NCBI GenBank assembly: GCA_027371845.1
Contig: DAHXLD010000019.1
Coordinates: 1-44,489, forward strand
Direction: 5' to 3'
DNA length: 44,489 nt
From: Candidatus Saccharimonadota bacterium
GTDB lineage: Bacteria; Patescibacteriota; Saccharimonadia; Saccharimonadales; UBA4665
The notes below the pieces were generated by a model. The model was not told the origin of the DNA, made no database searches, and was given only the letters and a program-made list of their open reading frames with translations. The translations under genes were made by a program, and so were the position numbers. Every line of letters begins with the position of its first letter. Position 1 is the first letter of the stretch. This document shows positions 8,913 through 42,798 of this stretch, in pieces.

Positions 8913-8992
8913 AGCTATTATGTTTAGTTAAGGTCTTTATGGAACGAAGCTACTTTAAACTTTAATTCTTTTTAATGATTGATTATATTAGT

Positions 8993-8998
8993 TATAGT
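8993..8998 (+). promoter_or_regulatory. -10 box deciding the start of 9006-9452
   Basis: TATAGT lies 7 nt before ATG 9006. It falls inside the longer frame that would begin at a TTG at 8979, which argues for the ATG as the true start. Confidence 0.5.
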
Positions 8999-9005
8999 AA
9001 ACATT

Positions 9006-9452
9006 ATGAAAATTAGATATCAAACCGGATTCGCTAGCCTCATTCAATTTATAATAATTTCTATTCTAGGAGTCCCGCACGCATTAGTTTCTATAATATC
9101 CACTTGTAGCTCCGATCATACGAACTGTATAAGTAATATGGTAGTATCTTTAATCTTCTTTATTTTAACCGTAATCTGGTTTGGCTTCATGGCAGCTCTC
9201 GGCTTCTTCGCTCAAGACAAGAGAAATACTAAACTAGCCTTTATACTAATGGGGTGTGAGGCGGCCAATGCGGTTGTAGCGGGATATATTAATTTTCCCG
9301 GCGATACTAACATCTTAGATAAAGGGATAAGTTTAATTGATACGGTTTTAAGTATTTGGGTAATAATTCTCGCTTTTCAATTAATGCGAGCTAAGGGTGG
9401 AAGAGTCGTAAAGAAACATCACATTATTCAAAATATAAAAAAGAATTTATAA
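9006..9452 (+). CDS. Four-helix membrane protein of unknown function
   Basis: The 148-residue product has about four hydrophobic helices (roughly 8-30, 42-66, 74-95, 105-128) and a basic C-terminal tail (VVKKHH). The frame can be extended to TTG 8979, but the -10 box at 8993-8998 favours ATG 9006. It is convergent with polA and overlaps it by 6 nt (TTATAA). No family is recognised. Confidence 0.65.
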   Translation: MKIRYQTGFASLIQFIIISILGVPHALVSIISTCSSDHTNCISNMVVSLIFFILTVIWFGFMAALGFFAQDKRNTKLAFILMGCEAANAVVAGYINFPGDTNILDKGISLIDTVLSIWVIILAFQLMRAKGGRVVKKHHIIQNIKKNL

Positions 9453-33961: not shown

Positions 33962-34086
33962 ACATCTTATTATAGATTATTCAAGTATGGGGTGGGTTTA
34001 TATTTCTTTAAATTTAATTCAAAATGTTTACGTTTACTTTGTTTTGAACTAATATGCTATTTAGACGATATAACAAAGGAGGTGAT

Positions 34087-34632
34087 ATGCCTAAGAATAA
34101 TAGAAAGAAAATAGATAGAAATTTAACCTCAATAGGTTTTGTGGCAACAATTGCGTTAATTATAATCGGATTTTTAGCTTGGTGGGCTTATTCTTTCATA
34201 AGTACCAACGTATATAACGAGCTAGCCTCTCAAAAAATTTACTTTCCAGCTGCCAATAGTCCAGCTCTAAATAATCCTGAGATCAAACCTTATTTAGAAA
34301 AGTACGCAGGTCAGCAACTTTTAACTGGCCCCGAAGCCAAGGCTTATGCCAATCACTTTATAGCGGTTCATCTTTCAGAAGTAGCTGGTGGTAAAACATA
34401 CTCTCAGGTTAGTGCCGAATCTCTTGCAAACCCCACCAACCCAACCCTTAAAGCTCAAGCTCAAACCCTATTCCAAGGGGAAACTTTAAGAGGTCTACTG
34501 TTGGGAGATGCTTACGCTTTCGCAACTATCGCTACAATCGCTAAAATAGCAGCAGTTGTTTGTTTTGTAGCTGGCGGAATAATGTTTATATTAGTAGTTT
34601 TGGGTTTTTGGCATTACTCGACATTAAAATAG
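34087..34632 (+). CDS. Two-helix membrane protein resembling an actinobacterial family
   Basis: The start is ATG 34087, chosen because a full anti-16S complement (AAGGAGGTGAT, 34076-34086) directly precedes it; an upstream in-frame ATG at 34054 would add 11 residues. The 181-residue product has membrane helices at about 13-36 and 148-172. The extracellular loop contains PAANSPALNNPEIKP, KYAGQQLLTGPEAKAYANHF, IAVHLSEVAGGKTYSQ and LFQGETLRGLLLGDAYAF. From memory this closely matches actinobacterial membrane proteins often mislabelled LigA (aromatic ring-opening dioxygenase). No enzymatic function is implied. Confidence 0.7.
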   Translation: MPKNNRKKIDRNLTSIGFVATIALIIIGFLAWWAYSFISTNVYNELASQKIYFPAANSPALNNPEIKPYLEKYAGQQLLTGPEAKAYANHFIAVHLSEVAGGKTYSQVSAESLANPTNPTLKAQAQTLFQGETLRGLLLGDAYAFATIATIAKIAAVVCFVAGGIMFILVVLGFWHYSTLK

Positions 34633-35139
34633 TTAAAACCTATTAGAAGAATCAGTAGGTACGCTTACGATGATATTATTTGATGTACTTTCAAAAGCCG
34701 TTAACAATCTATCCATGTGTTCGGTTAGACATAAAAGCTTATCATAAAAACTTGAGAAATCAGACACCGCAGGCCCTAACTCAGAAACCCCATAAGTAGC
34801 TCTTATGGTTAAATCCTCACCCTCAGAAAGTGCCAAATCGCCAATATCGTCATCGTGTAATAAATAACCTCGTGGCCCAGCTCCTAGAATAGTGTATCTA
34901 GAGCTTATATTAGAAAGAAAAGCTTCCGTATTTTGATAATTTGAGAATGTCATTAAAAAACCAGCTTGATCGTGTTCGAAAGACATTGATACTTGGCAAT
35001 ATAAACCACTATCAGGGTCTTCAAATTCAGAGATATTACGACGTTCTTTAGCTAAAAAATACTTATGAATCTTTAAATCATCGTCTATAAGGATCATGTT
35101 TCTAGTCGGAGCTTGTTCAAATGTTTGTTTTGGTTTCAT
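34633..35139 (-). CDS. Orphan soluble acidic protein
   Basis: The 168-residue, acidic, Ser-rich protein lacks a signal peptide or membrane helix. Strand-rich segments (YCQVSMSFEHDQAGFLMTF) are followed by a C-terminal helix (FYDKLLCLTEHMDRLLTAFE). No family is recognised. An extended -10 box (TG-T-TATTAT, 35149-35157) lies about 9 nt before ATG, so the leader is very short or absent. It directly abuts the stop of 34632. Confidence 0.6.
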   Translation of the reverse strand: MKPKQTFEQAPTRNMILIDDDLKIHKYFLAKERRNISEFEDPDSGLYCQVSMSFEHDQAGFLMTFSNYQNTEAFLSNISSRYTILGAGPRGYLLHDDDIGDLALSEGEDLTIRATYGVSELGPAVSDFSSFYDKLLCLTEHMDRLLTAFESTSNNIIVSVPTDSSNRF

Positions 35140-35480
35140 TTCAAATAAATAATAACACTAATGAATAAAAATTATTATAGAGTTATATTGTGATTAATAC
35201 AAAGCTCTTAAATTAAGCCCTCAATTTAAAGTATAAAACGCTATTATATTCAGAAATAATTATTACCAAATGATTATTGAATTAACTAAAGAAATTGTGA
35301 TTGCTAGCTTAGCGCAATGTGTTTATATATAGAAAGTATGTATATGTCAATTTAGCTATATCATCGATTGCAGGTCATGGGTCAGGCAAGATTATAACCG
35401 ATTATAACCCGTTAACTAAGGGTTTGAGGTGCCCCCTCTGCCAAATCTAATACAGTAACCATAGTGCTGGATTAGAACCG
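35140..35480. other. Left boundary region of the accessory island (no gene)
   Basis: No coding frame is supported. It contains the promoter of 34633-35139, a 24-nt stretch at 35245-35268 (TATATTCAGAAATAATTATT and on) that recurs imperfectly at 40068-40091, two tandem copies of GATTATAACC (35390-35399 and 35400-35409), and the A1 repeat core (35423-35479). Confidence 0.6.
35423..35479 (+). repeat. Island repeat A, copy 1 (core only)
   Basis: The core TTTGAGGTGCC...CTGGATTAGAACC matches cores of A2 and A3. An imperfect 12-bp stem forms between TCTAATACAGTA and TGCTGGATTAGA. It ends 1 nt before the stop codon of the minus-strand deacetylase gene. The 5' half seen in A2/A3 is absent. Confidence 0.7.
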
Positions 35481-36206
35481 TTATGAAAGGCGTGCGGATT
35501 CCTCCCTAACTAGTTCCATTTCACTTAACTTGCAGATTCTAAAGCCTTTTTGCAAGATATTATCAATAATTATTGGTAATGCTTCTAAAGTTGGCAGCGC
35601 TCTATTCATCCAATTATCATAGTGTTTATTACCCGGTAAATTATGCTCTGAGCTATCATGAAAGCCCACCAAAGTACCGTTTTCAATTATTTTCATCCAG
35701 GCATCTACAATGCGCTTTGCGTATGCGCTGATAGCCTGGGTATCCTGCTCGTCCCACTTGTGATCTGCGTCCCAATCATAGTCGCCTATAGCTAGCCCAG
35801 ACATCACTACATTGTTGCCATAAAGAGGTTCTATAATTCTTGCGACTTCATAATTCCAACTGAAATATGGTGGTCTTAGGAAGATAATTTGGTCTTCTTC
35901 TATACCTGCAGCTTTTGCAATAGCATCCCGGCCTTTTATAACCTCGTCAGTTACTGCTTGATCGCCTTGTTTCTGAAGAATCTCGACAAGTTTTTTATGT
36001 GTATAAGTATGGTTACCGATTTCGTGTCCTTCTGTAGCAATTTGTCTAACAATATCAGGGGACTTTTCTGCCCTCATACCAATTAAAAAGAAGTTTGCCT
36101 TTACGTCTTTAAGTCTAAGAATATCTAATATCTTAGGTGTTATTTTTGGGTTAGGTCCGTCGTCGAATAATAAGGCTACATCATTTTTAGCTTTATATAT
36201 AACCAT
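35481..36206 (-). CDS. Polysaccharide deacetylase (NodB domain)
   Basis: This is a metal-dependent N- or O-deacetylase of carbohydrate (CE4 family). Motif 1 is LLFDDGPNP (Asp15, Asp16), motif 2 HEIGNHTYTH (zinc ligands His66 and His70), motif 3 RPPYFSWN and a late LVGFHDSSEHN histidine. The 241-residue protein has no signal peptide or membrane anchor, so it would act in the cytoplasm or be exported otherwise; the N-terminus starts only 10 residues before the domain. TG-T-TAAACT 6 nt before ATG suggests leaderless expression. It is the first gene of the island, with A1 at its 3' end. Confidence 0.88.
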   Translation of the reverse strand: MVIYKAKNDVALLFDDGPNPKITPKILDILRLKDVKANFFLIGMRAEKSPDIVRQIATEGHEIGNHTYTHKKLVEILQKQGDQAVTDEVIKGRDAIAKAAGIEEDQIIFLRPPYFSWNYEVARIIEPLYGNNVVMSGLAIGDYDWDADHKWDEQDTQAISAYAKRIVDAWMKIIENGTLVGFHDSSEHNLPGNKHYDNWMNRALPTLEALPIIIDNILQKGFRICKLSEMELVREESARLS

Positions 36207-36338
36207 GTAATTAGTTTAACAAATTTTGCTAACAGGATTTAAATCAATTTAAGAAATAAATGTGCTTTGGTAGCCGTATTCGTTAATTACTTGGAACTTC
36301 AACAACAGAGATTATCGCTATAAAAGTCTTGATAGTGC

Positions 36339-36369
36339 AGTGTAGTCCGAAAAGTCCAAAACTCAATAT
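36339..36369 (+). repeat. Island repeat B, copy 1
   Basis: The sequence CAGTGTAGTCCGAAAAGTCC continues to CTCAATA and is nearly identical to B2 (37357-37387). It lies 3' of fic. B1 and B2 are direct repeats about 1,018 bp apart that bracket only fic. Confidence 0.8.
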
Positions 36370-36403
36370 GCACAGATTTGCACCAGAAATTAAGAGATTG
36401 TTT

Positions 36404-37273
36404 TTAGGTGCCTACCTTCCAAATGCCTTTTTCACGAAATGCTGGAATTGTTTGTCTTCTCGCAGCATTTATTAGTGTATTTACTGACCGTTTGTTTTGC
36501 TTAGCATAGTCGGACAGTCTTATAATATTCTGCCCTTTAAGGTATGAAATCCGTTTATTTAGTGATTCCATAACGGATAACATTATAAGATTTTCCATTC
36601 TTCCCGTGTGTTTAAGTTGTTGATATTCAACAAATGCAGGGTAGTATCTATCAAACTTACCCTTGTTACGAATAATGATCGGCGGGTACCCAAGTTGCTT
36701 GAGTTGTAAGTTCATGAGGACACGACCTATCCTACCGTTACCATCAACAAAAGGATGAATCCGTTCAAATTCTAGATGGAAGTATGAAAAACGGTCTATA
36801 AAATGTTGCTGGTCATTAGCCCTATAGTCTACTAACAGACGGTTGACAAGCTGTTCGATTTTATCAGGAGCAGGTGCTATATGTGTACCAGCTCGTACAT
36901 ACTCGCTCGGACCTCTCAATCTACCGGCAATTGTGTCATTTATCCCACCAATTAACATTTGGTGTAATAGCAATATATTTTCGACAGATAGTTCAAGATT
37001 AATATGATTATTAATATACTCAGTAACTCTGGCTAGATTTTTAGCTTCAAAAAGTTCTCTTACACTAATGTTCCGTGAAACTTCTTGTTCAAGAAGTATT
37101 CGCTCCGTTTCTTTGAGGGTAAGTTTCGAGTTCTCAATAGCGTTAGAGTTATAGACCAGTTCCGGAAGTTCAGACTCTTCAAGTAATATCAGCAGTGAGT
37201 CTTTGCCAGTTTTCAGCCTCTCAAATTCTTTTTTGAGCTGAGCTATTTTAAATCTATTTAAGGCACTAGGCAT
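36404..37273 (-). CDS. Fic-domain AMP-transferase, self-inhibited type
   Basis: Fic proteins transfer AMP from ATP to protein hydroxyls. The catalytic motif HPFVDGNGRIGR lies at 173-184. An inhibitory helix motif (S/T)xxxE(G/N) is present before it as SNAIEN (Ser43, Glu47, Asn48), the class II arrangement in which Glu blocks ATP positioning. The C-terminus (RLSDYAKQNKRSVNTLINAA) looks like a small DNA-binding winged helix, suggesting autoregulation. Length 289. The promoter is TTGACA-17-TATACT, 6 nt from ATG (leaderless). Confidence 0.92.
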   Translation of the reverse strand: MPSALNRFKIAQLKKEFERLKTGKDSLLILLEESELPELVYNSNAIENSKLTLKETERILLEQEVSRNISVRELFEAKNLARVTEYINNHINLELSVENILLLHQMLIGGINDTIAGRLRGPSEYVRAGTHIAPAPDKIEQLVNRLLVDYRANDQQHFIDRFSYFHLEFERIHPFVDGNGRIGRVLMNLQLKQLGYPPIIIRNKGKFDRYYPAFVEYQQLKHTGRMENLIMLSVMESLNKRISYLKGQNIIRLSDYAKQNKRSVNTLINAARRQTIPAFREKGIWKVGT

Positions 37274-37279
37274 GCTTCA

Positions 37280-37347
37280 AGTATAACTAATTAACGATAT
37301 AATGTCAATAAAGCGTTAATATTATCCGTTTTTTATATATATTAACG
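37280..37347 (-). promoter_or_regulatory. fic promoter with three ATTAACG operator-like boxes
   Basis: On the minus strand TTGACA (37303-37308) and TATACT (37280-37285) have a 17-nt spacer. ATTAACG occurs at 37290-37296, inverted (CGTTAAT) at 37314-37320 and again at 37341-37347, overlapping and flanking the promoter. The C-terminal HTH-like segment of Fic is a candidate binder. Confidence 0.6.
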
Positions 37348-37356
37348 ATAATGGTA

Positions 37357-37387
37357 CAGTGTAGTCCGAGAAGTCCAAAACTCAATA
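37357..37387 (+). repeat. Island repeat B, copy 2
   Basis: It is nearly identical to B1 and preceded by ATGGTA, which is also seen before B4. It lies 15 nt from the stop of the minus-strand gene 37403-37687. Confidence 0.8.
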
Positions 37388-37402: not shown

Positions 37403-37687
37403 CTAGTGACTAGTGCCTTTTAAGATTGAGTTATTGTAACCGTCAGGGTCAGCTAGATTATGCTTGACTCTGTCTACTAATTCAAATTGGGAAATCCATC
37501 GGCTAAACACTGCTATTCGTCCTTCAAGATGTCCACCATCTACTCTAGTATGCAAAAGTCTTCCATTAGCAATTTCAACTACTTCAACCCCGCTAACATC
37601 ATCTTCGGCAGTATGAGCATTATACCGCCCGCATACACAATGTTCGTTCTCGTTTATTGGAGTTATTCCCAAAACTAGTCTTTCCAT
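37403..37687 (-). CDS. Small island protein of unknown function
   Basis: The 94-residue protein contains a Cys-x-Cys (EHCVCGRYNAHT) and a VDGGHLEGRIAVFSRWISQF segment. It has no signal peptide or membrane helix, and no family is recognised. It sits between repeats B2 and B4 in the same orientation as fic. That repeat-bracketed placement, more than its sequence, supports it being a real cassette gene. Confidence 0.5.
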   Translation of the reverse strand: MERLVLGITPINENEHCVCGRYNAHTAEDDVSGVEVVEIANGRLLHTRVDGGHLEGRIAVFSRWISQFELVDRVKHNLADPDGYNNSILKGTSH

Positions 37688-37736: not shown

Positions 37737-37772
37737 GATGGTACGGCATTGTCGACAAGGTTAGAACTTTAT
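37737..37772 (+). repeat. Island repeat B, diverged copy (B4)
   Basis: ATGGTACGGCATTGTCGACA and the following GGTTAGAACTTTATT align with B2 at roughly two of three positions, and its GTTAGAA end resembles B3. It overlaps the 3' end of the broken kinase gene. Confidence 0.45.
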
Positions 37773-38269
37773 TGTCGCGAGCTTATTACGAATGGAGTCA
37801 ATCAATTCGCCATAATCCGTAGTTCGAGAAAAAACTAAGTAGTCTGGTTTTAGTAATCTTATCGCTTTATGGTAAGCATCTAGTTGAGCGGGCAGCAACT
37901 GAAGTAATTCATCTGTATCGTAACGCTTTCTTGCCTTGATACGTGCTATGAGTTCATCTTCTGATAAGTCTATTGCAATTACATACGTCTCATATCCGTT
38001 GCGCAAGGCAGTATAAACAAAACTACAACAAGAAAAAGTTCATTGGAAAGATTTCATTAACAGAGGTCCAAGACAAAGTGCTGTCAATTTCGGGGACTTG
38101 ACACCTCATCATTGCAAAAGTATGTAGCCCGCAAATTGCTAACGAGCAATTGCCGAATTGAGGACTTGCCTGAGCCGGAACAGGCTAAAAAGAATATGGC
38201 AAGTTTAGGATAAGATTCATCCTTGTTTGGCCGAGTATTAAGATACTCGTCTGCAAGCTGTGGAACCAT
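37761..38269 (-). pseudogene. Broken P-loop kinase / zeta-toxin-like gene
   Basis: The N-terminal part (start 38269) reads LAIFFLACSGSGKSSIRQLL, a Walker A motif, then ATYFCNDEV, as in zeta-toxin/AAA_33 kinases. It hits a stop near 38084. A second in-register fragment, from about 38030 to 37761, reads FVYTALRNGYETYVIAIDLS, then ARKRYDTDELL and YLVFSRTTDYGELIDSIRNK, the expected C-terminal half. The two halves are joined through stops and a frame change, with part of the middle missing. It is most likely inactivated. Confidence 0.7.
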
Positions 38270-38313
38270 AGTTTGATAATAGCATAGACGCTGTATAGTA
38301 AACCACTTATGCT

Positions 38314-38435
38314 TGGTACACCTTCCTGTCTCCGCTTAGAACCGCCTCAAAGCTGAAATATTGCGGTGGCATGAAACGTTTGGGGCACTATTTCTGCCAA
38401 GTCTAGCACAGTAACTACCGTACTGGATTAGAACC
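38314..38435 (+). repeat. Island repeat A, copy 2
   Basis: The 122-bp sequence starts TGGTACACCTTCCTGTCTCC and ends CTGGATTAGAACC. It aligns without gaps to A3 at roughly three quarters of positions, and its second half to A1. The first 9 nt equal the CCA end plus acceptor of tRNA-Arg at 41327 read on this strand. The core folds (CAGTA with TACTG, extended to a 12-bp imperfect stem). It lies between the kinase pseudogene and relBE. Confidence 0.85.
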
Positions 38436-38480
38436 TTGTTGGTCTATCTGAATTCTATAGAGGTATGAATGACGAGCATA

Positions 38481-38533: not shown

Positions 38534-38752
38534 ATGCGCACTACTATCACCATTAACGATAAAATATATAAAGCTTTGAGGATACGAGCTGCTGAATGCG
38601 GAGAGTCCGTTTCTTCTGTAATTGAAGATGCGGTCAAGGAACAAGTGCTTGAGGATTTAGAAGACCTTCAAATTGTTAAAGAACGTGAGAATGAATCTGC
38701 TATAGACTTCCACTTATTCGTTAAAGAGCTTAAAGCTGATGGCCTCTTATAA
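38534..38752 (+). CDS. Antitoxin of a RelBE/ParDE-type pair
   Basis: The 72-residue protein starts with a ribbon-helix-helix pattern (MRTTITINDKIYKALRIRAA; ESVSSVIEDAV) and ends with an acidic toxin-binding tail. It should neutralise the toxin encoded next, bind the operator upstream and repress both genes. A good Shine-Dalgarno (GAGG, 38524-38527) is present. Its end overlaps the toxin gene by 14 nt, indicating translational coupling. Confidence 0.85.
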   Translation: MRTTITINDKIYKALRIRAAECGESVSSVIEDAVKEQVLEDLEDLQIVKERENESAIDFHLFVKELKADGLL

Positions 38753-39008
38753 AGTTAAGATTAAAAACTCTGCCCAAAAAGAAATCCGTAAACTTCCAAG
38801 TAAAGAGTTGCGAGATAGTATTGTGGGCATAATCGGTGGCCTATATATAAATCCCATACCAGATGATTCAAAAAAGATTAAAGGTTCCAATAATATCTAT
38901 CGTATAAGGCAAGGGGTTTACCGAATCGTTTATCAGATTTATAAAAATGAGTTACTGATTCTAGTTATAAGAGTTCGACATCGTAAAGACGTATATAAAG
39001 GGCTGTAA
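38739..39008 (+). CDS. RelE/ParE-family toxin
   Basis: The 89-residue protein fits the RelE/ParE fold: YKVKIKNSAQKEIRKLPSKE, IKGSNNIYRIRQGVYRIVYQ and a final VIRVRHRKDVYKGL. Basic residues in the central strands and the C-terminal Arg/His resemble ribosome-dependent mRNA interferases (RelE type) more than gyrase poisons, but this is not certain. It is followed 6 nt later by repeat A3. Confidence 0.88.
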   Translation: MASYKVKIKNSAQKEIRKLPSKELRDSIVGIIGGLYINPIPDDSKKIKGSNNIYRIRQGVYRIVYQIYKNELLILVIRVRHRKDVYKGL

Positions 39009-39014
39009 ATTATG

Positions 39015-39135
39015 TGGTACACCTTCCTGTCTCCGCTTGGAACCGCCTCAAGAATGAACTACTGCGCTGGCACGAGACATTTGAAGTATCACCTCTGCCA
39101 AGTCTAGTACGATAACTATCGGGCTGGATTAGCAC
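39015..39135 (+). repeat. Island repeat A, copy 3
   Basis: It starts TGGTACACCTTCCTGTCTCC, like A2, and the preceding TTATG also precedes the tRNA-Arg end. It fills most of the gap between the convergent relE and vapC stops. The core hairpin CGATA/TATCG keeps pairing with different bases from A2, which suggests that the structure is conserved. Confidence 0.85.
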
Positions 39136-39141
39136 AAAACA

Positions 39142-39540
39142 CTAAATTACACTAAGCCCGTGAGGTTTATAAGCATCGAACTTGCTATCGCTAGATAATA
39201 AAGTCATGCCGCTTTGGATAGCTAGCCATATGATCATCCTGTCAAAAGGGTCTCTGTGATCCTTTATCTTGGGTAGTAAGTAATAGGTGGACCACTGTTC
39301 GGAAGAAGGAGTGATATCCTTTAGCCCAATTTTATATATTCCGGCCAGGAATTCATCTAGAGTATGACTGCCAAGTTCTAGCTTACCTAGAGCATATTTT
39401 AAGCTAATCTCCCATTTCGATATAGAGCTAACAAACTTTTCATTTTCAGATGACTTAATAATTTTTTTGTGTTCCGGGCTCAACTTCTCTGGGCTTAGTC
39501 TAAGCCAAAGCAGAATATGAGTATCCAGTAGATAATTCAC
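39142..39540 (-). CDS. VapC-type PIN-domain toxin
   Basis: The 132-residue PIN ribonuclease has the acidic quartet: LLDTHILLW (Asp6), SKWEISLKYALGKLEL (Glu), KDHRDPFDRMIIW (Asp residues) and SSDSKF. VapC toxins cleave specific tRNAs or rRNA. Its start overlaps the end of the antitoxin gene by 4 nt. Confidence 0.92.
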   Translation of the reverse strand: MNYLLDTHILLWLRLSPEKLSPEHKKIIKSSENEKFVSSISKWEISLKYALGKLELGSHTLDEFLAGIYKIGLKDITPSSEQWSTYYLLPKIKDHRDPFDRMIIWLAIQSGMTLLSSDSKFDAYKPHGLSVI

Positions 39541-39779
39541 GAATTAATAAGCTCTTCTTCTGTTATTTCAAAGCCGTTTAACGCATATGTCCAACCTTGA
39601 GACTTTAGGTCGCCTATTTTTACAGAGTGGTTTGGTTTTTCTAGTTGATTTTGCGGAATAATTGTCGCCAATGGTACTTTTTTGCGACCATAAGTAATTA
39701 CAACTTTATTTCCATGCTTAAGCTCATCTACAACGGATGAAAAGTTGGCTTTGAAGTCAGCGGTAGTCATTATTTTCAT
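39537..39779 (-). CDS. Phd/YefM-family antitoxin
   Basis: The 80-residue protein has the Phd/YefM N-terminal DNA-binding pattern (TTADFKANFSSVVDELKHG; VVITYGRKKVPLATIIP) and a C-terminal toxin-binding tail. It pairs with the PIN toxin that follows. A palindrome and promoter lie directly upstream, consistent with autoregulation and a leaderless start. Confidence 0.9.
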   Translation of the reverse strand: MKIMTTADFKANFSSVVDELKHGNKVVITYGRKKVPLATIIPQNQLEKPNHSVKIGDLKSQGWTYALNGFEITEEELINS

Positions 39780-40223
39780 AATAAACTATACTAGCAAAGT
39801 GAGTATAAGTTGTCAAGTTGACACTTTCATAGACAAACGGATATGATCTGCTTTATACAGAATCGCCAATAAAAATTAATCTTAATCCATCCTCGGTTAC
39901 TAGTCTCAAGTCAGCAGCTTAAATAATAACGTCTTGAGAATTGATCTAACAGGATTCGAACCGATTTTAGGAAGTAAAAGCTCTAAGTTGGTAAAATCAC
40001 TAAAATATTTAGAACTACAGAAACAAAAGTTGTAAAGTCAACGAAAATAATGGTACTCCCTAATAGATATATTCAGAAATAAATATTATCAGACTATAGT
40101 TAGTATTGCTGATGAAGTAGAGATGGTTATAGAATATTTAGGCAACAGTTTTAGCTTGAACTTACAAATTTAACGTGGGTAAACCCAAACCACTCGGTTT
40201 ATAAAGAATTTCTAATGAGATAC
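39780..40223. other. Island intergenic region with remnants
   Basis: No gene is supported. It holds the Phd promoter, a 15-nt fragment AACAGGATTCGAACC (39948-39962) matching the T-arm of the tRNA-Arg gene as read on this strand, an ATAATGGTAC motif (40047-40056) like the one before B2, and a 24-nt stretch at 40068-40091 similar to 35245-35268. A minus-strand 21-codon tail (ending RLIFIGDSV) near 39860-39925 may be the remnant of a lost gene. Confidence 0.45.
39787..39816 (-). promoter_or_regulatory. Promoter and operator of the Phd-VapC operon
   Basis: On the minus strand TTGACA (39811-39816) and TAGTAT (39788-39793) are 17 nt apart, 8 nt before ATG. TATACT-N9-AGTATA (39787-39807) is a perfect inverted repeat over the -10. 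TGTCAA-G-TTGACA covers the -35. Confidence 0.65.
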
Positions 40224-40394
40224 TTAGTTGGAATTAGATTTTGAAGACAGCATATTCCGCTCCACTGACAGTTTCGAAATATCTAAACTGCAACTACTAT
40301 ACTTTTTACACCATGCTTCGCATTGCTTTGCGGTTTCCTCGTTTTCATAGTGCAGTCCGCACTCAGAACATTGAAATAGCTTTTTATCTACCAT
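40224..40394 (-). CDS. Tiny Cys-rich zinc-finger-like protein
   Basis: ATG at 40394 begins a 56-residue frame: FQCSECGLHY, then AKQCEAWCKKYSSC. The Cys pattern C9-x2-C12 ... C25-x3-C29-x5-C35, with His15, suggests a structural zinc site. Similar short proteins (a QCxECGxxYE...CEAWC layout) are known from CPR genomes; their function is unknown. A Shine-Dalgarno-like AAGGAG lies about 12 nt upstream. The opposite-strand frame at 40241-40450 is its shadow. Confidence 0.65.
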   Translation of the reverse strand: MVDKKLFQCSECGLHYENEETAKQCEAWCKKYSSCSLDISKLSVERNMLSSKSNSN

Positions 40395-40455
40395 ATTTAA
40401 ATTTTACTCCTTTTAAAAACAATGGTGCATTAATCGTTCTTGACAACTAAAATGC

Positions 40456-40481
40456 CAGTCCGAGAAGTTAGAAACTCTATA
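40456..40481 (+). repeat. Island repeat B, diverged copy (B3)
   Basis: CAGTCCGAGAAGTTAGAAAC and the following TCTATA match B2 at about 21 of 26 positions. It lies just 3' of the second vapC gene. Confidence 0.6.
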
Positions 40482-40489
40482 ATAACAAG

Positions 40490-40897
40490 CTATACTTTAA
40501 CTAAAGTAGAATTTGGAGCCTGATTGGCCAATTTTTTATCAAAAGTCCATAAAGGTTCAGCATCATTGAGTTGTGCGTATACAGATAAACAACAATCCTC
40601 AAAAGATAAACCACTATGTTCAATATATAATGGCAGTGCTTTTTCAAAAAGAACTCTATTGCAGTTTATTTCTTTTAAATTCATAAGACCCTCTATTGCT
40701 TCGCTAGTCTGTAAACGACTAAATCTGTAGTATCGGTCAAGCACAAACACCAGCTCAATTATTGCTATGTCAGCAACAGCAAACTGATTAGCAGTTTGGC
40801 TTAATAGTTTCTTTACAGCAGCATGCTGCTCAGTTATGTCGTTAAGTAGTAGACGTAATAAGACATTAGTATCCAATGAGCCTACACATTTCGTCAT
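40490..40897 (-). CDS. VapC-type PIN-domain toxin (second)
   Basis: The 135-residue PIN protein has SLDTNVLLRLLL (Asp9), IIELVFVLDRYYRF (Glu), SGLSFEDCCLSVYA (Asp) and WTFDKKLA (Asp), the usual acidic site. It starts 3 nt after its AbrB-type antitoxin gene and is probably translationally coupled. Sequence similarity to the other VapC in the island is limited to the motifs, so the two are not recent duplicates. Confidence 0.92.
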   Translation of the reverse strand: MTKCVGSLDTNVLLRLLLNDITEQHAAVKKLLSQTANQFAVADIAIIELVFVLDRYYRFSRLQTSEAIEGLMNLKEINCNRVLFEKALPLYIEHSGLSFEDCCLSVYAQLNDAEPLWTFDKKLANQAPNSTLVKV

Positions 40898-40900
40898 ATC

Positions 40901-41149
40901 TTATTTAGACCTATTTGCCTGGTAAAATGCGTCTGCGTCGATAAGAGGACTTATTCCAGGCTTGATATACCCACTTAGCTTTTTGCTAAGTTCATCTATA
41001 CTGGTGGGCTTTGATATTACAAGTTCGCCCTTATGTTCGTTAAAGCTGATTCGTAACGTGCCACCACCTTTACTTAAGCCGAGTTTATGACGCACTGGAG
41101 CTGGTATGGTAGTTTGACCCTTGCTCGTAATTGTAAGCGTAGCCTTCAT
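40901..41149 (-). CDS. AbrB/MazE-family antitoxin (VapB type)
   Basis: The 82-residue protein from ATG 41149 begins MKATLTITSKGQTTIPAPVR, the SpoVT-AbrB swapped-hairpin DNA-binding domain, followed by an Asp/Ala tail for toxin binding. In-frame starts at 41155 and 41185 exist, but TATAGT at 41157-41162 ends 7 nt before ATG 41149, favouring the shortest form as a leaderless message. Confidence 0.88.
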   Translation of the reverse strand: MKATLTITSKGQTTIPAPVRHKLGLSKGGGTLRISFNEHKGELVISKPTSIDELSKKLSGYIKPGISPLIDADAFYQANRSK

Positions 41150-41156
41150 ATCCATT

Positions 41157-41190
41157 ACTATAGCAAAACCTATTACTAAATACAATAGGT
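41157..41190 (-). promoter_or_regulatory. Promoter and operator of the AbrB-VapC operon
   Basis: TATAGT (41157-41162) and TTGTAT (41180-41185) are 17 nt apart on the minus strand. The perfect inverted repeat ACCTATT-N9-AATAGGT (41168-41190) covers the spacer and -35, a probable autoregulatory site. It would overlap the coding sequence if the 41185 start were used. Confidence 0.65.
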
Positions 41191-41326
41191 AATGTAAGTA
41201 ACTTTTTTATTACTAAATGTAGTGACCAGATTGGAAACGATTTTAATCTGCTAGCATAGGTAAGACTTAAAAATTGCGAAAATATCAGAAATCTCTGAAT
41301 GTTGTATTAGAAACTAAATTCTTATG

Positions 41327-41403
41327 TGGTACACCCGACAGGATTCGAACCTGTGACCTTTGGCTCCGCAAGCCAACACTCTATCCAGCTGAGCTACGGG
41401 TGC
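41327..41403 (-). tRNA. tRNA-Arg (anticodon GCG)
   Basis: A full cloverleaf is seen on the minus strand: acceptor GCACCCG / CGGGTGT (one G-U), D-arm GCTC/GAGT, anticodon stem TTGGC/GCCAA with loop TTGCGGA (anticodon GCG, decoding CGC/CGU), T-arm ACAGG/CCTGT with TTCGAAT, discriminator A and encoded CCA. Repeats A2 and A3 begin with its 3' end, so it probably anchors the island. Confidence 0.95.
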
Positions 41404-41477
41404 AAGTTATATGTATTATACTTTTTATAACCTATTTTGTTTAATATCTAAACATTTTTTAATAAATAATACGGAAG

Positions 41478-41483
41478 TATAAT
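41478..41483 (+). promoter_or_regulatory. -10 box of leaderless Nudix gene
   Basis: TATAAT lies 8 nt before ATG 41492. Confidence 0.5.
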
Positions 41484-41491
41484 TACTAGGC

Positions 41492-41953
41492 ATGAAGCAA
41501 TTAACCTTACTAATTTTAATTAAAGAAAATCAGATTCTCTTAGCCATGAAGAAAAGAGGCTTTGGTGTCGGTAAGTGGAATGGCATTGGCGGAAAACAAG
41601 CTGAAAATGAGACTATAGAAGAAACTTGTGTTAGAGAATGCTGGGAAGAAATAAATGTTAAACCTAAAAATCTATCTAGTGTTGGGATATTAAACTTTTA
41701 CCTTAACAACCAAAAGACTATTGGTCAAAAGGTCTTTGTTTATGTCGCTAAAACTTGGGAGGGGGAGCCATCTGAAAGCGAAGAAATGGCTCCAAGATGG
41801 TTTAAGATTGATGAAATCCCTTACCAAAATATGTGGCAAGACGATATACACTGGTTACCGTTGGTTCTAAACGGTAAGTATGTAGAGGGGGACTTTTGGT
41901 TTGATGATAAAGATCAACTTCTAAAATATAGCTTGAATAAAATAAACAACTAG
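41492..41953 (+). CDS. MTH1-like Nudix hydrolase
   Basis: The 153-residue protein carries MKKRGFGVGKWNGIGGK, a stretch typical of MTH1/NUDT1, and a Nudix box from Gly34 (E40, R48, E49, E52, E53); the usual Gly near its end is Asn55. It probably hydrolyses oxidised purine nucleotides such as 8-oxo-dGTP, complementing MutM. The stop shares CTAG with the convergent HAD gene. Confidence 0.88.
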   Translation: MKQLTLLILIKENQILLAMKKRGFGVGKWNGIGGKQAENETIEETCVRECWEEINVKPKNLSSVGILNFYLNNQKTIGQKVFVYVAKTWEGEPSESEEMAPRWFKIDEIPYQNMWQDDIHWLPLVLNGKYVEGDFWFDDKDQLLKYSLNKINN

Positions 41954-42798
41954 AGACTTAAAAGATAGTCTCCAAGTTTAGAAGGATTTTCTAACTCTAT
42001 GATCCCATTTAAATCCGAGAGATAGGATTTGATCGTTTCTCTTGATTCCTTTGGCCCTACCAACAGGGTTTCTTTGGAGTCAAAATCCAGCATTTCAACA
42101 TCATTTATAGCGTTACCAGCTACTAAAAGCTTGCTTGAACTTATTTTCAAATAATCTAAAAGGTATTTAATGGCCAGAGCTTTATTGGCGTTTTGTTTAA
42201 CAAATACCATTTCTCCATCTTGAAATACAATTTTTGTTTCAGTTCTTGTGAATAATAATTTAAGATTTTCCACTTTAATATATGGCTTTAATTTTAGGGT
42301 AACATTTGTTAGTTCTTCTTTCCTTATTAAAGAGCTTAATTCTCCTAAAGAGGCGTAGAAAACGTCAGCATAGTGACCTCGTTTTTTAATTTCCATTTCT
42401 AGATCACTCTCATTAAAACAACAAATTTTAACTTTTTTATTTGGATCGTTAGGATAAAACAAAAGCATTTTAAATAAATCTATATTGTTCCTGGTAAAGT
42501 CTACGATGTGATCGATTTCTTGATCAATTAAAAAATCGGCAAATATTGTATTTCCTTTTTTATCTACAATTTTTGTACCGTGTTCCACGATAATTGGTGA
42601 TTTATCTGAAATTAAATCATTAAAAGAGCTCCCTAACGCTTCTCTTAATCTAATATAGCCCCTACCTGTTGAAATAGTAGTTAGGGTATTATTTTTATGT
42701 AAGTGTTTAAAGCCCTTAACGACAGAATCTGGGACAACTCCGTTTTCCCAGATAGTTCCATCTACGTCAAAAATTGCAATTTCAATTAAATCGTTCAT
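41950..42798 (-). CDS. HAD phosphatase, Cof-like (IIB)
   Basis: The 282-residue protein has motif I FDVDGTIWENG (Asp11, Asp13 intact), motif II TISTGRG, an inserted cap domain (about 85-200), a conserved Lys (NANKALAIKYLL) and motif IV GNAINDVEML. It should dephosphorylate small metabolites such as sugar phosphates; the substrate is not predictable. TATAAT at 42805-42810, 6 nt before ATG, predicts a leaderless mRNA. Confidence 0.85.
   Translation of the reverse strand: MNDLIEIAIFDVDGTIWENGVVPDSVVKGFKHLHKNNTLTTISTGRGYIRLREALGSSFNDLISDKSPIIVEHGTKIVDKKGNTIFADFLIDQEIDHIVDFTRNNIDLFKMLLFYPNDPNKKVKICCFNESDLEMEIKKRGHYADVFYASLGELSSLIRKEELTNVTLKLKPYIKVENLKLLFTRTETKIVFQDGEMVFVKQNANKALAIKYLLDYLKISSSKLLVAGNAINDVEMLDFDSKETLLVGPKESRETIKSYLSDLNGIIELENPSKLGDYLLSL

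Follow-up and report, generated by a model that had tools for sequence, protein, structure and literature searches.

The window analysed here, a 44,489-nt stretch of a Candidatus Saccharimonadota genome, comes from an assembly of 530 kb that is 66% complete. Between about 35.4 and 41.335 kb it is tiled by small cassettes that end exactly at a tRNA-Arg(gcg) gene, in the order A' arm-deacetylase, B1-fic, B2 with a 94-aa ORF and a remnant, A1-RHH/ParE, A2-Phd/PIN, a tentative small unit, B3-AbrB/PIN and finally the tRNA gene. The orientation of the cargo relative to the sites is mixed (minus for fic and AbrB-PIN, plus for RHH-ParE). The features of the array are listed below, with LSR standing for large serine recombinase.

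35422-35479, plus strand: decayed A-type right arm (A') at the left end of the array; 76% identity over 58 nt to A1/A2, 3' part only
35481-36206, minus strand: cassette 1 cargo, polysaccharide deacetylase (Pfam PF01522, E 6e-28)
36222-36331, plus strand: second-type left arm L2 closing cassette 1; 83% identity over 119 nt to the left arm of the L135 Phd-PIN cassette (8981-9099)
36332-36368, plus strand: B1, core (TAGTGCAGTG) and B-type right arm opening the fic cassette (site model E 6.8e-9)
36404-37273, minus strand: cassette 2 cargo, fic, 289 aa (Pfam PF02661, E 1e-20)
37351-37387, plus strand: B2, core (TGGTACAGTG) closing the fic cassette and B-type right arm opening cassette 3 (site model E 1.8e-10)
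37403-37687, minus strand: cassette 3 cargo, 94-aa ORF without a Pfam match; a decayed ORF follows, to ~38270
38314-38436, plus strand: A1, core TTGGTACACC and A-type right arm (displaced 3' end of an LSR gene)
38534-39008, plus strand: cassette 4 cargo, RHH antitoxin (38534-38752) and ParE toxin (38739-39008) (Pfam PF05016; weak RHH_1/VAPB_antitox)
39013-39137, plus strand: A2, core TGTGGTACACC and A-type right arm, reading VHLPVSAWNRLKNELLRWHETFEVSPLPS...
39142-39779, minus strand: cassette 5 cargo, PIN toxin and Phd antitoxin
39939-40060, plus strand: L2 left arm and core (TGGTACTCC) closing cassette 5; L135/L057 homology stops here
40061-40450, no strand assigned: cassette 6 (tentative), third-type right arm and small zinc-ribbon-like ORF (by eye); partial L137 homology
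40457-40481, plus strand: B3 right arm opening the AbrB-PIN cassette (site model E 8.9e-9)
40490-41185, minus strand: cassette 7 cargo, PIN toxin and AbrB/MazE-type antitoxin (Pfam)
41278-41335, plus strand: first-type left arm L1 and core TGTGGTACACC (left-arm matrix score 37)
41327-41403, minus strand: tRNA-Arg(gcg), its 3' end being the core of all sites (ARAGORN)

The left boundary of the array is uncertain and lies near 35358, with synteny to an array-less locus of the same genus (G001) extending up to ~35290, and the right boundary of cassette 6 is likewise tentative. The decayed ORF of cassette 3 (37761-38270) appears to be of P-loop type (GSGKSS by eye) and is interrupted by frameshifts.

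A sequence-only reading had drawn attention to fic as flanked by two nearly identical 31-bp repeats, and these are indeed noncoding direct repeats on either side of the gene (36404-37273, minus strand) that share 30 of 31 bases (36338-36368 vs 37357-37387). Within-window comparison of the longer spans starting at 36332 and 37351 gives 92% identity over 37 nt, with a BLAST E of ~3e-8 for the search within the window. Of the two diverged copies proposed at the same time, B3 (40457-40481; 84% to B2) is a true third member with a single mismatch to the 21-base consensus of the family, but "B4" (~40350) is not matched by the site model and, by eye, looks like part of the small zinc-ribbon ORF. Other B-like matches inside the window stay at chance level (19/31 at most), and B1, B2 and B3 are the only site-model matches across the 530-kb assembly. 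Recent copying of B1 and B2, as that reading had proposed, fits the comparison with other sites: of the roughly 32 distinct sites in that comparison, only these two carry the variant GTCCAAAACTC, which gives them the look of sister copies. They probably descend from a single local copy, whether through duplication, through conversion or because both came from the same source.

Each B site consists of a core, TGGTACACC, and a conserved right arm, and the core is the 3' end of tRNA-Arg including CCA, read on the opposite strand. A pattern search of 149 relatives recovered the consensus TGGTACACC-GYAGTCCGAGAAGTCAGAAMCTC elsewhere, and the family numbers about 45 sites, spread over some 18 related genomes of Saccharibacteria. 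With a profile built from 30 sites (site model R1), strong matches among 393 genomes of the order are found in 18 genomes, all belonging to the window's own family and only to a few related genera. Arrays beside tRNA-Arg in these relatives carry one to six B sites, and in the locus stretches examined a tRNA-Arg gene lies within 6 kb of 25/44 B arms. Left of the core, many sites have a left arm AAAATATCAGAACC..GTATTAGAGACTAAATTCCTGTG in common, and the L1 arm directly abuts the tRNA-Arg 3' end in 8/28 cases from the same locus stretches. All of these genomes are MAGs, and many arrays run to contig ends. The 30 sites have no consensus secondary structure; half-sites with dyad symmetry were seen by eye, but we dropped them since the score for dyad symmetry or inverted half-sites of the B consensus was not above that of shuffles. 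This speaks against LSR-type attachment sites, in which inverted half-sites around the crossover would be expected. Neither the sites nor an LSR relative were found in viral contigs. The essential part of a site is thus the core formed by the tRNA-Arg 3' end, to which either of two types of right arm, B or A (38314, 39015), can be joined.

What recurs among relatives is more than the repeats. The AbrB-PIN cassette is a single unit of ~880 bp present in ten contexts (the window and nine other loci), with homology that starts at the right arm and stops at the core. Its first 100 bases are 74-91% identical to the window in the nine other loci, and the sequence upstream of the unit shows 33-55% identity to the window against a random baseline of 49%; past the core follows a tRNA-Arg of the (gcg), (tcg) or (ccg) type, a B arm or an A arm. 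Likewise, the Phd-PIN unit (39014-40059) has 88-90% identity to its counterparts in L057 and L135 with its edges at the cores, making three genomes in total. Copies of the tRNA 3' end thus mark the unit edges in all ten contexts of AbrB-PIN and all three of Phd-PIN, and because both units recur with their edges at cores, it is whole units that recur as blocks and not the repeats alone. Other cassettes in relatives carry MazF-like, PIN, DUF1653 and kinase-like genes. The converse situation is seen in G001, where homologs of window positions 34007-35290 and 41327-42263 (the latter being tRNA-Arg(gcg) plus a NUDIX gene) lie only 241 bp apart, so that the whole 6-kb array is absent there, with a short remnant or another arm kept at the locus. 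A third type of left arm, found in G055 and at the array-less G001 locus, is also present in the 3' flank of a tRNA-Arg(tcg) gene of the window's own genome (G000:C18, L004), which probably therefore holds another insertion.

Read from the core onward, the A arms, which number about 30 in relatives besides A1 and A2, code for VHLPVSAWNRLKSELLRWHETFEVSPLPSLAQ and then a stop codon; ..VHLPVSAWNRLKSELLRWHETFEV.. likewise belongs to their coded sequence. Matches to the peptide are found in 31/93 genomes of the family, some of them weak. Their variability per codon position is 0.10, 0.065 and 0.207, and since variation follows codon positions we regard the A arm as coding; an attC-like hairpin, also considered, was rejected on the same pattern. 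The source of this peptide is apparent in G083, where an LSR with Resolvase, Recombinase and zinc ribbon domains ends at tRNA-Arg(gcg) and reads ..ENSALVHPTGFEP.. into the antisense tRNA, in the A-arm frame and across the same core. This LSR and an A arm lie 14.4 kb apart and join in frame to 548 aa. In these elements attP thus lies inside the recombinase gene, with the A arms as its displaced end. Full-size LSR elements at tRNA-Arg are present in G083, G084 and G033. The one at G083:C7 55042-69418 (L133, L065), a 14.4-kb element with type III restriction-like genes (by eye), a tyrosine recombinase and the LSR, is likely an autonomous relative of the cassettes.

The same gene architecture extends to other tRNA genes, as 27/30 related LSR ORFs enter an antisense tRNA (Arg, Met, Glu, Gly, Leu), and at L189 an LSR away from any tRNA has a natural C-terminus with a related WNxI motif. 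Across loci L174-L203 and L216-L242, LSR genes stand at the 3' ends of Arg, Met, Glu, Gly, Leu, Pro, Gln, Lys and Ser tRNAs, most of them in frame into the antisense tRNA, as in a general tRNA-targeting LSR clade. No LSR gene is found in the window cassettes, which is why we did not file them as autonomous LSR elements, and no LSR of the tRNA-Arg type was found in the window's genome at 66% completeness. The sole LSR match there, G000:C14:21591-21800 (L239), is a fragment cut by a contig end that stops 88 bp from the 3' end of tRNA-Gln(ttg). No LSR joined to a B arm was found either, and upstream frames at B sites reach at most 70 codons. The B arm could be the coding end of a second LSR, as its frame is mostly open (..VHRSPRSQKL..), but its variation is not codon-biased.

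The spacing of a short motif differs between arms and tRNA genes. The distance from the end of GAACC to the TGG of the core is 25 bases in tRNA-Glu and in all tRNA-Arg genes examined, while the corresponding motif (GAAMC) ends at 30 in all 22/22 B arms that have it, in most A arms and in the Glu-type arms. Serine integrases have their zinc-domain motif 5 bp nearer the centre in attB than in attP (PMC3783163), and the values of 25 and 30 correspond to an attP-like arm motif displaced 5 bp outward relative to the tRNA as attB, for one motif noticed post hoc. We take this offset as support and not as proof because of that post hoc origin and because the A-arm value may partly reflect the coded Trp-Asn.

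It seems likely, on balance, that the array is a stack of small non-autonomous cassettes at the tRNA-Arg(gcg) 3' end, with an LSR from full-size relatives acting in trans. What such a reading builds on are unit boundaries and spread, the association with tRNA-Arg, the absence of the array from a relative and an LSR gene split at the core, all as read from the assembled sequences. Each unit would open with a right arm (A or B), continue with the cargo and close with a left arm followed by the tRNA 3'-end sequence TGGTACACC, so that the fic unit would comprise the B1 right arm, fic and the B2 core. A circular unit would carry left arm, core and right arm as attP, and integration at the tRNA 3' end (attB) would restore the tRNA and place the unit beside it; repeated entry at this one spot would push earlier units away and stack them. 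The catalyst would be the LSR of full-size elements in relatives, which has the same core and its attP within the 3' end of the recombinase gene and which would be supplied in trans to the recombinase-free cassettes. We infer mobilisation in trans, circular intermediates and the same enzyme class for B and A sites. Relatives suggest that the cassettes are moved by a serine recombinase of an unusual kind, one that targets tRNA genes and splits its own gene on insertion. The normal LSR reaction pairs attP with attB and does not extend to a second attP or to attR as partner, and the model therefore does not explain in detail how the array grows or how B1 and B2 might recombine to excise fic.

Tyrosine recombinases offer a different catalyst. 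The units could have been moved by a lost phage-type integrase or by housekeeping Xer, with the tRNA-Arg 3' end as attB and the LSRs merely sharing this target; tyrosine integrases classically insert at tRNA 3' ends (PMC4383910), Xer-like housekeeping proteins are present in most genomes of the family (PF00589 match in 79/93), and the G083 element itself carries a tyrosine recombinase. However, the site-bearing genomes have no consistent dedicated tyrosine integrase, with one Xer-like PF00589 match each in G072, G081, G084 and G062 and none in G052, G067, G079 and G085, and this explanation would leave aside that the A arms, read through the same core, are the ends of LSR genes and that the 5-bp arm offset fits LSRs, which makes it unlikely in our view. 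Alternatively, successive full-size LSR elements at tRNA-Arg may have decayed by deletion, with no movement of small cassettes at all. Toxin-antitoxin genes are often the last survivors of mobile elements, a pattern that the leftover toxin-antitoxin genes of the array would fit, and decayed units are indeed present (the leftmost A' arm and cassette 3). Yet the same compact units are found intact repeatedly: AbrB-PIN has exact edges in each of its ten contexts, three isoacceptors among them, and Phd-PIN is shared at 88-90% by three genomes. Since independent decay would not yield identical minimal units we consider this scenario rather improbable.

Two further explanations concern the B sites themselves. 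An array of small, toxin-antitoxin-rich units with one site per unit resembles sedentary chromosomal integrons, with B sites as attC and units as gene cassettes, but the 30 sites have no consensus fold, the target is a tRNA gene, the cargo orientation is mixed and a PF00589 match (IntI-type tyrosine recombinase) is absent from the genome at 66% completeness, so that an integron is very hard to believe. Similarly, the position of the B repeats at gene ends would suit ordinary shared sequences with a regulatory or terminator role, or a chance resemblance. We give this next to no credence, as the roughly 45 sites of the family end in a tRNA 3' end, have no consensus hairpin, mark where unit homology stops and form the edges of whole recurring units.

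Compared to known systems, the cassettes and their presumed LSR combine familiar traits in a different way. With LSR elements such as those of the phiC31, Bxb1 and A118 integrases, the full-size relatives have in common a Resolvase-Recombinase-zinc ribbon protein adjoining the attachment site and the 5-bp motif offset between attB and attP (PMC3783163), but here the target is a tRNA 3' end, attP lies inside the recombinase gene and cassettes come without a recombinase. Serine integrases have been described as "not known to specify" tRNA genes (PMC4383910), and such targets are not used by mycobacteriophage Int-S either (PMC9262239). "Suicidal" archaeal integrases (SSV1, pTN3, pT26-2) are similar in that integration at the attachment site splits the gene, leaving one part at each end of the element; such self-cutting integrases are, however, tyrosine enzymes and stated to be exclusively archaeal (PMC8371274), whereas here we see serine recombinases in bacteria that lose only ~33 C-terminal codons. 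Acinetobacter dif (pdif) modules are likewise small, often toxin-antitoxin units that have short recombination sites at their borders and are mobilised in trans (PMC13141974), but these are XerC/XerD sites on plasmids, while the core described here is a chromosomal tRNA-Arg 3' end with no evident dif-like palindrome. Sedentary chromosomal integrons have the array of single-gene or toxin-antitoxin cassettes with one site each, in contrast to which there is here no integron integrase, no folded attC, mixed gene orientation and a tRNA target. Tandem tRNA islands in Islander also arise by tandem insertions at one tRNA gene that each restore its 3' end, yet each member has its own tyrosine integrase and tDNA fragment (PMC4383910), unlike the units described here, which lack an integrase and have only ~9-11 bases in common with the tRNA. 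By analogy, the cassettes would work like Acinetobacter dif modules or integron cassettes, yet by the features that define integrons they fall outside that class.

Our search of the open literature, with subscription papers outside its scope, found no report of such an arrangement. The loci suggest that serine integrases that target tRNA genes and serine integrases that cut their own gene both occur in Saccharibacteria, and that one core may also support the stacking of small recombinase-free cassettes. In its most general form, the proposal is that LSRs drive an integron-like accumulation of cassettes at tRNA genes of Saccharibacteria, with attP in the recombinase's own gene, integration replacing the recombinase C-terminus and attP-bearing cassettes (mostly toxin-antitoxin, also fic) stacked in trans; for this whole we see the case as evenly balanced. 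If true, ultra-small genomes would have a way of taking up and reshuffling toxin-antitoxin and Fic modules, and the serine integrases, with tRNA 3' ends as predictable targets, would be useful as tools.

For fic, the idea of a unit moving by recombination at B sites appears largely right, as B sites are cassette boundaries, although fic is one of about seven tiled cassettes. The empty site expected from that idea has a counterpart in the array-less syntenic locus of G001, but neither a site lacking fic only nor a B-fic circle was seen. Simple excision of fic between B1 and B2 is the least certain step, because serine integrases usually need unlike sites and two identical sites are normally not recombined unaided. 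A second Fic family occurs within B or A units of five genomes. The nearest relative of the fic gene itself (67%; G049:C66, L141 5936-6851) lies outside any B array and begins 29 bp past the 3' end of tRNA-Ile(gat), with no core found nearby. The Fic protein has the catalytic motif HPFVDGNGRIGR and the class II inhibitory motif SNAIEN (by eye). Several ATTAACGATA/CGTTAATATTATC-like repeats, likewise noted by eye, lie upstream of the gene (37285-37350) and are possibly operator sites for autoregulation.
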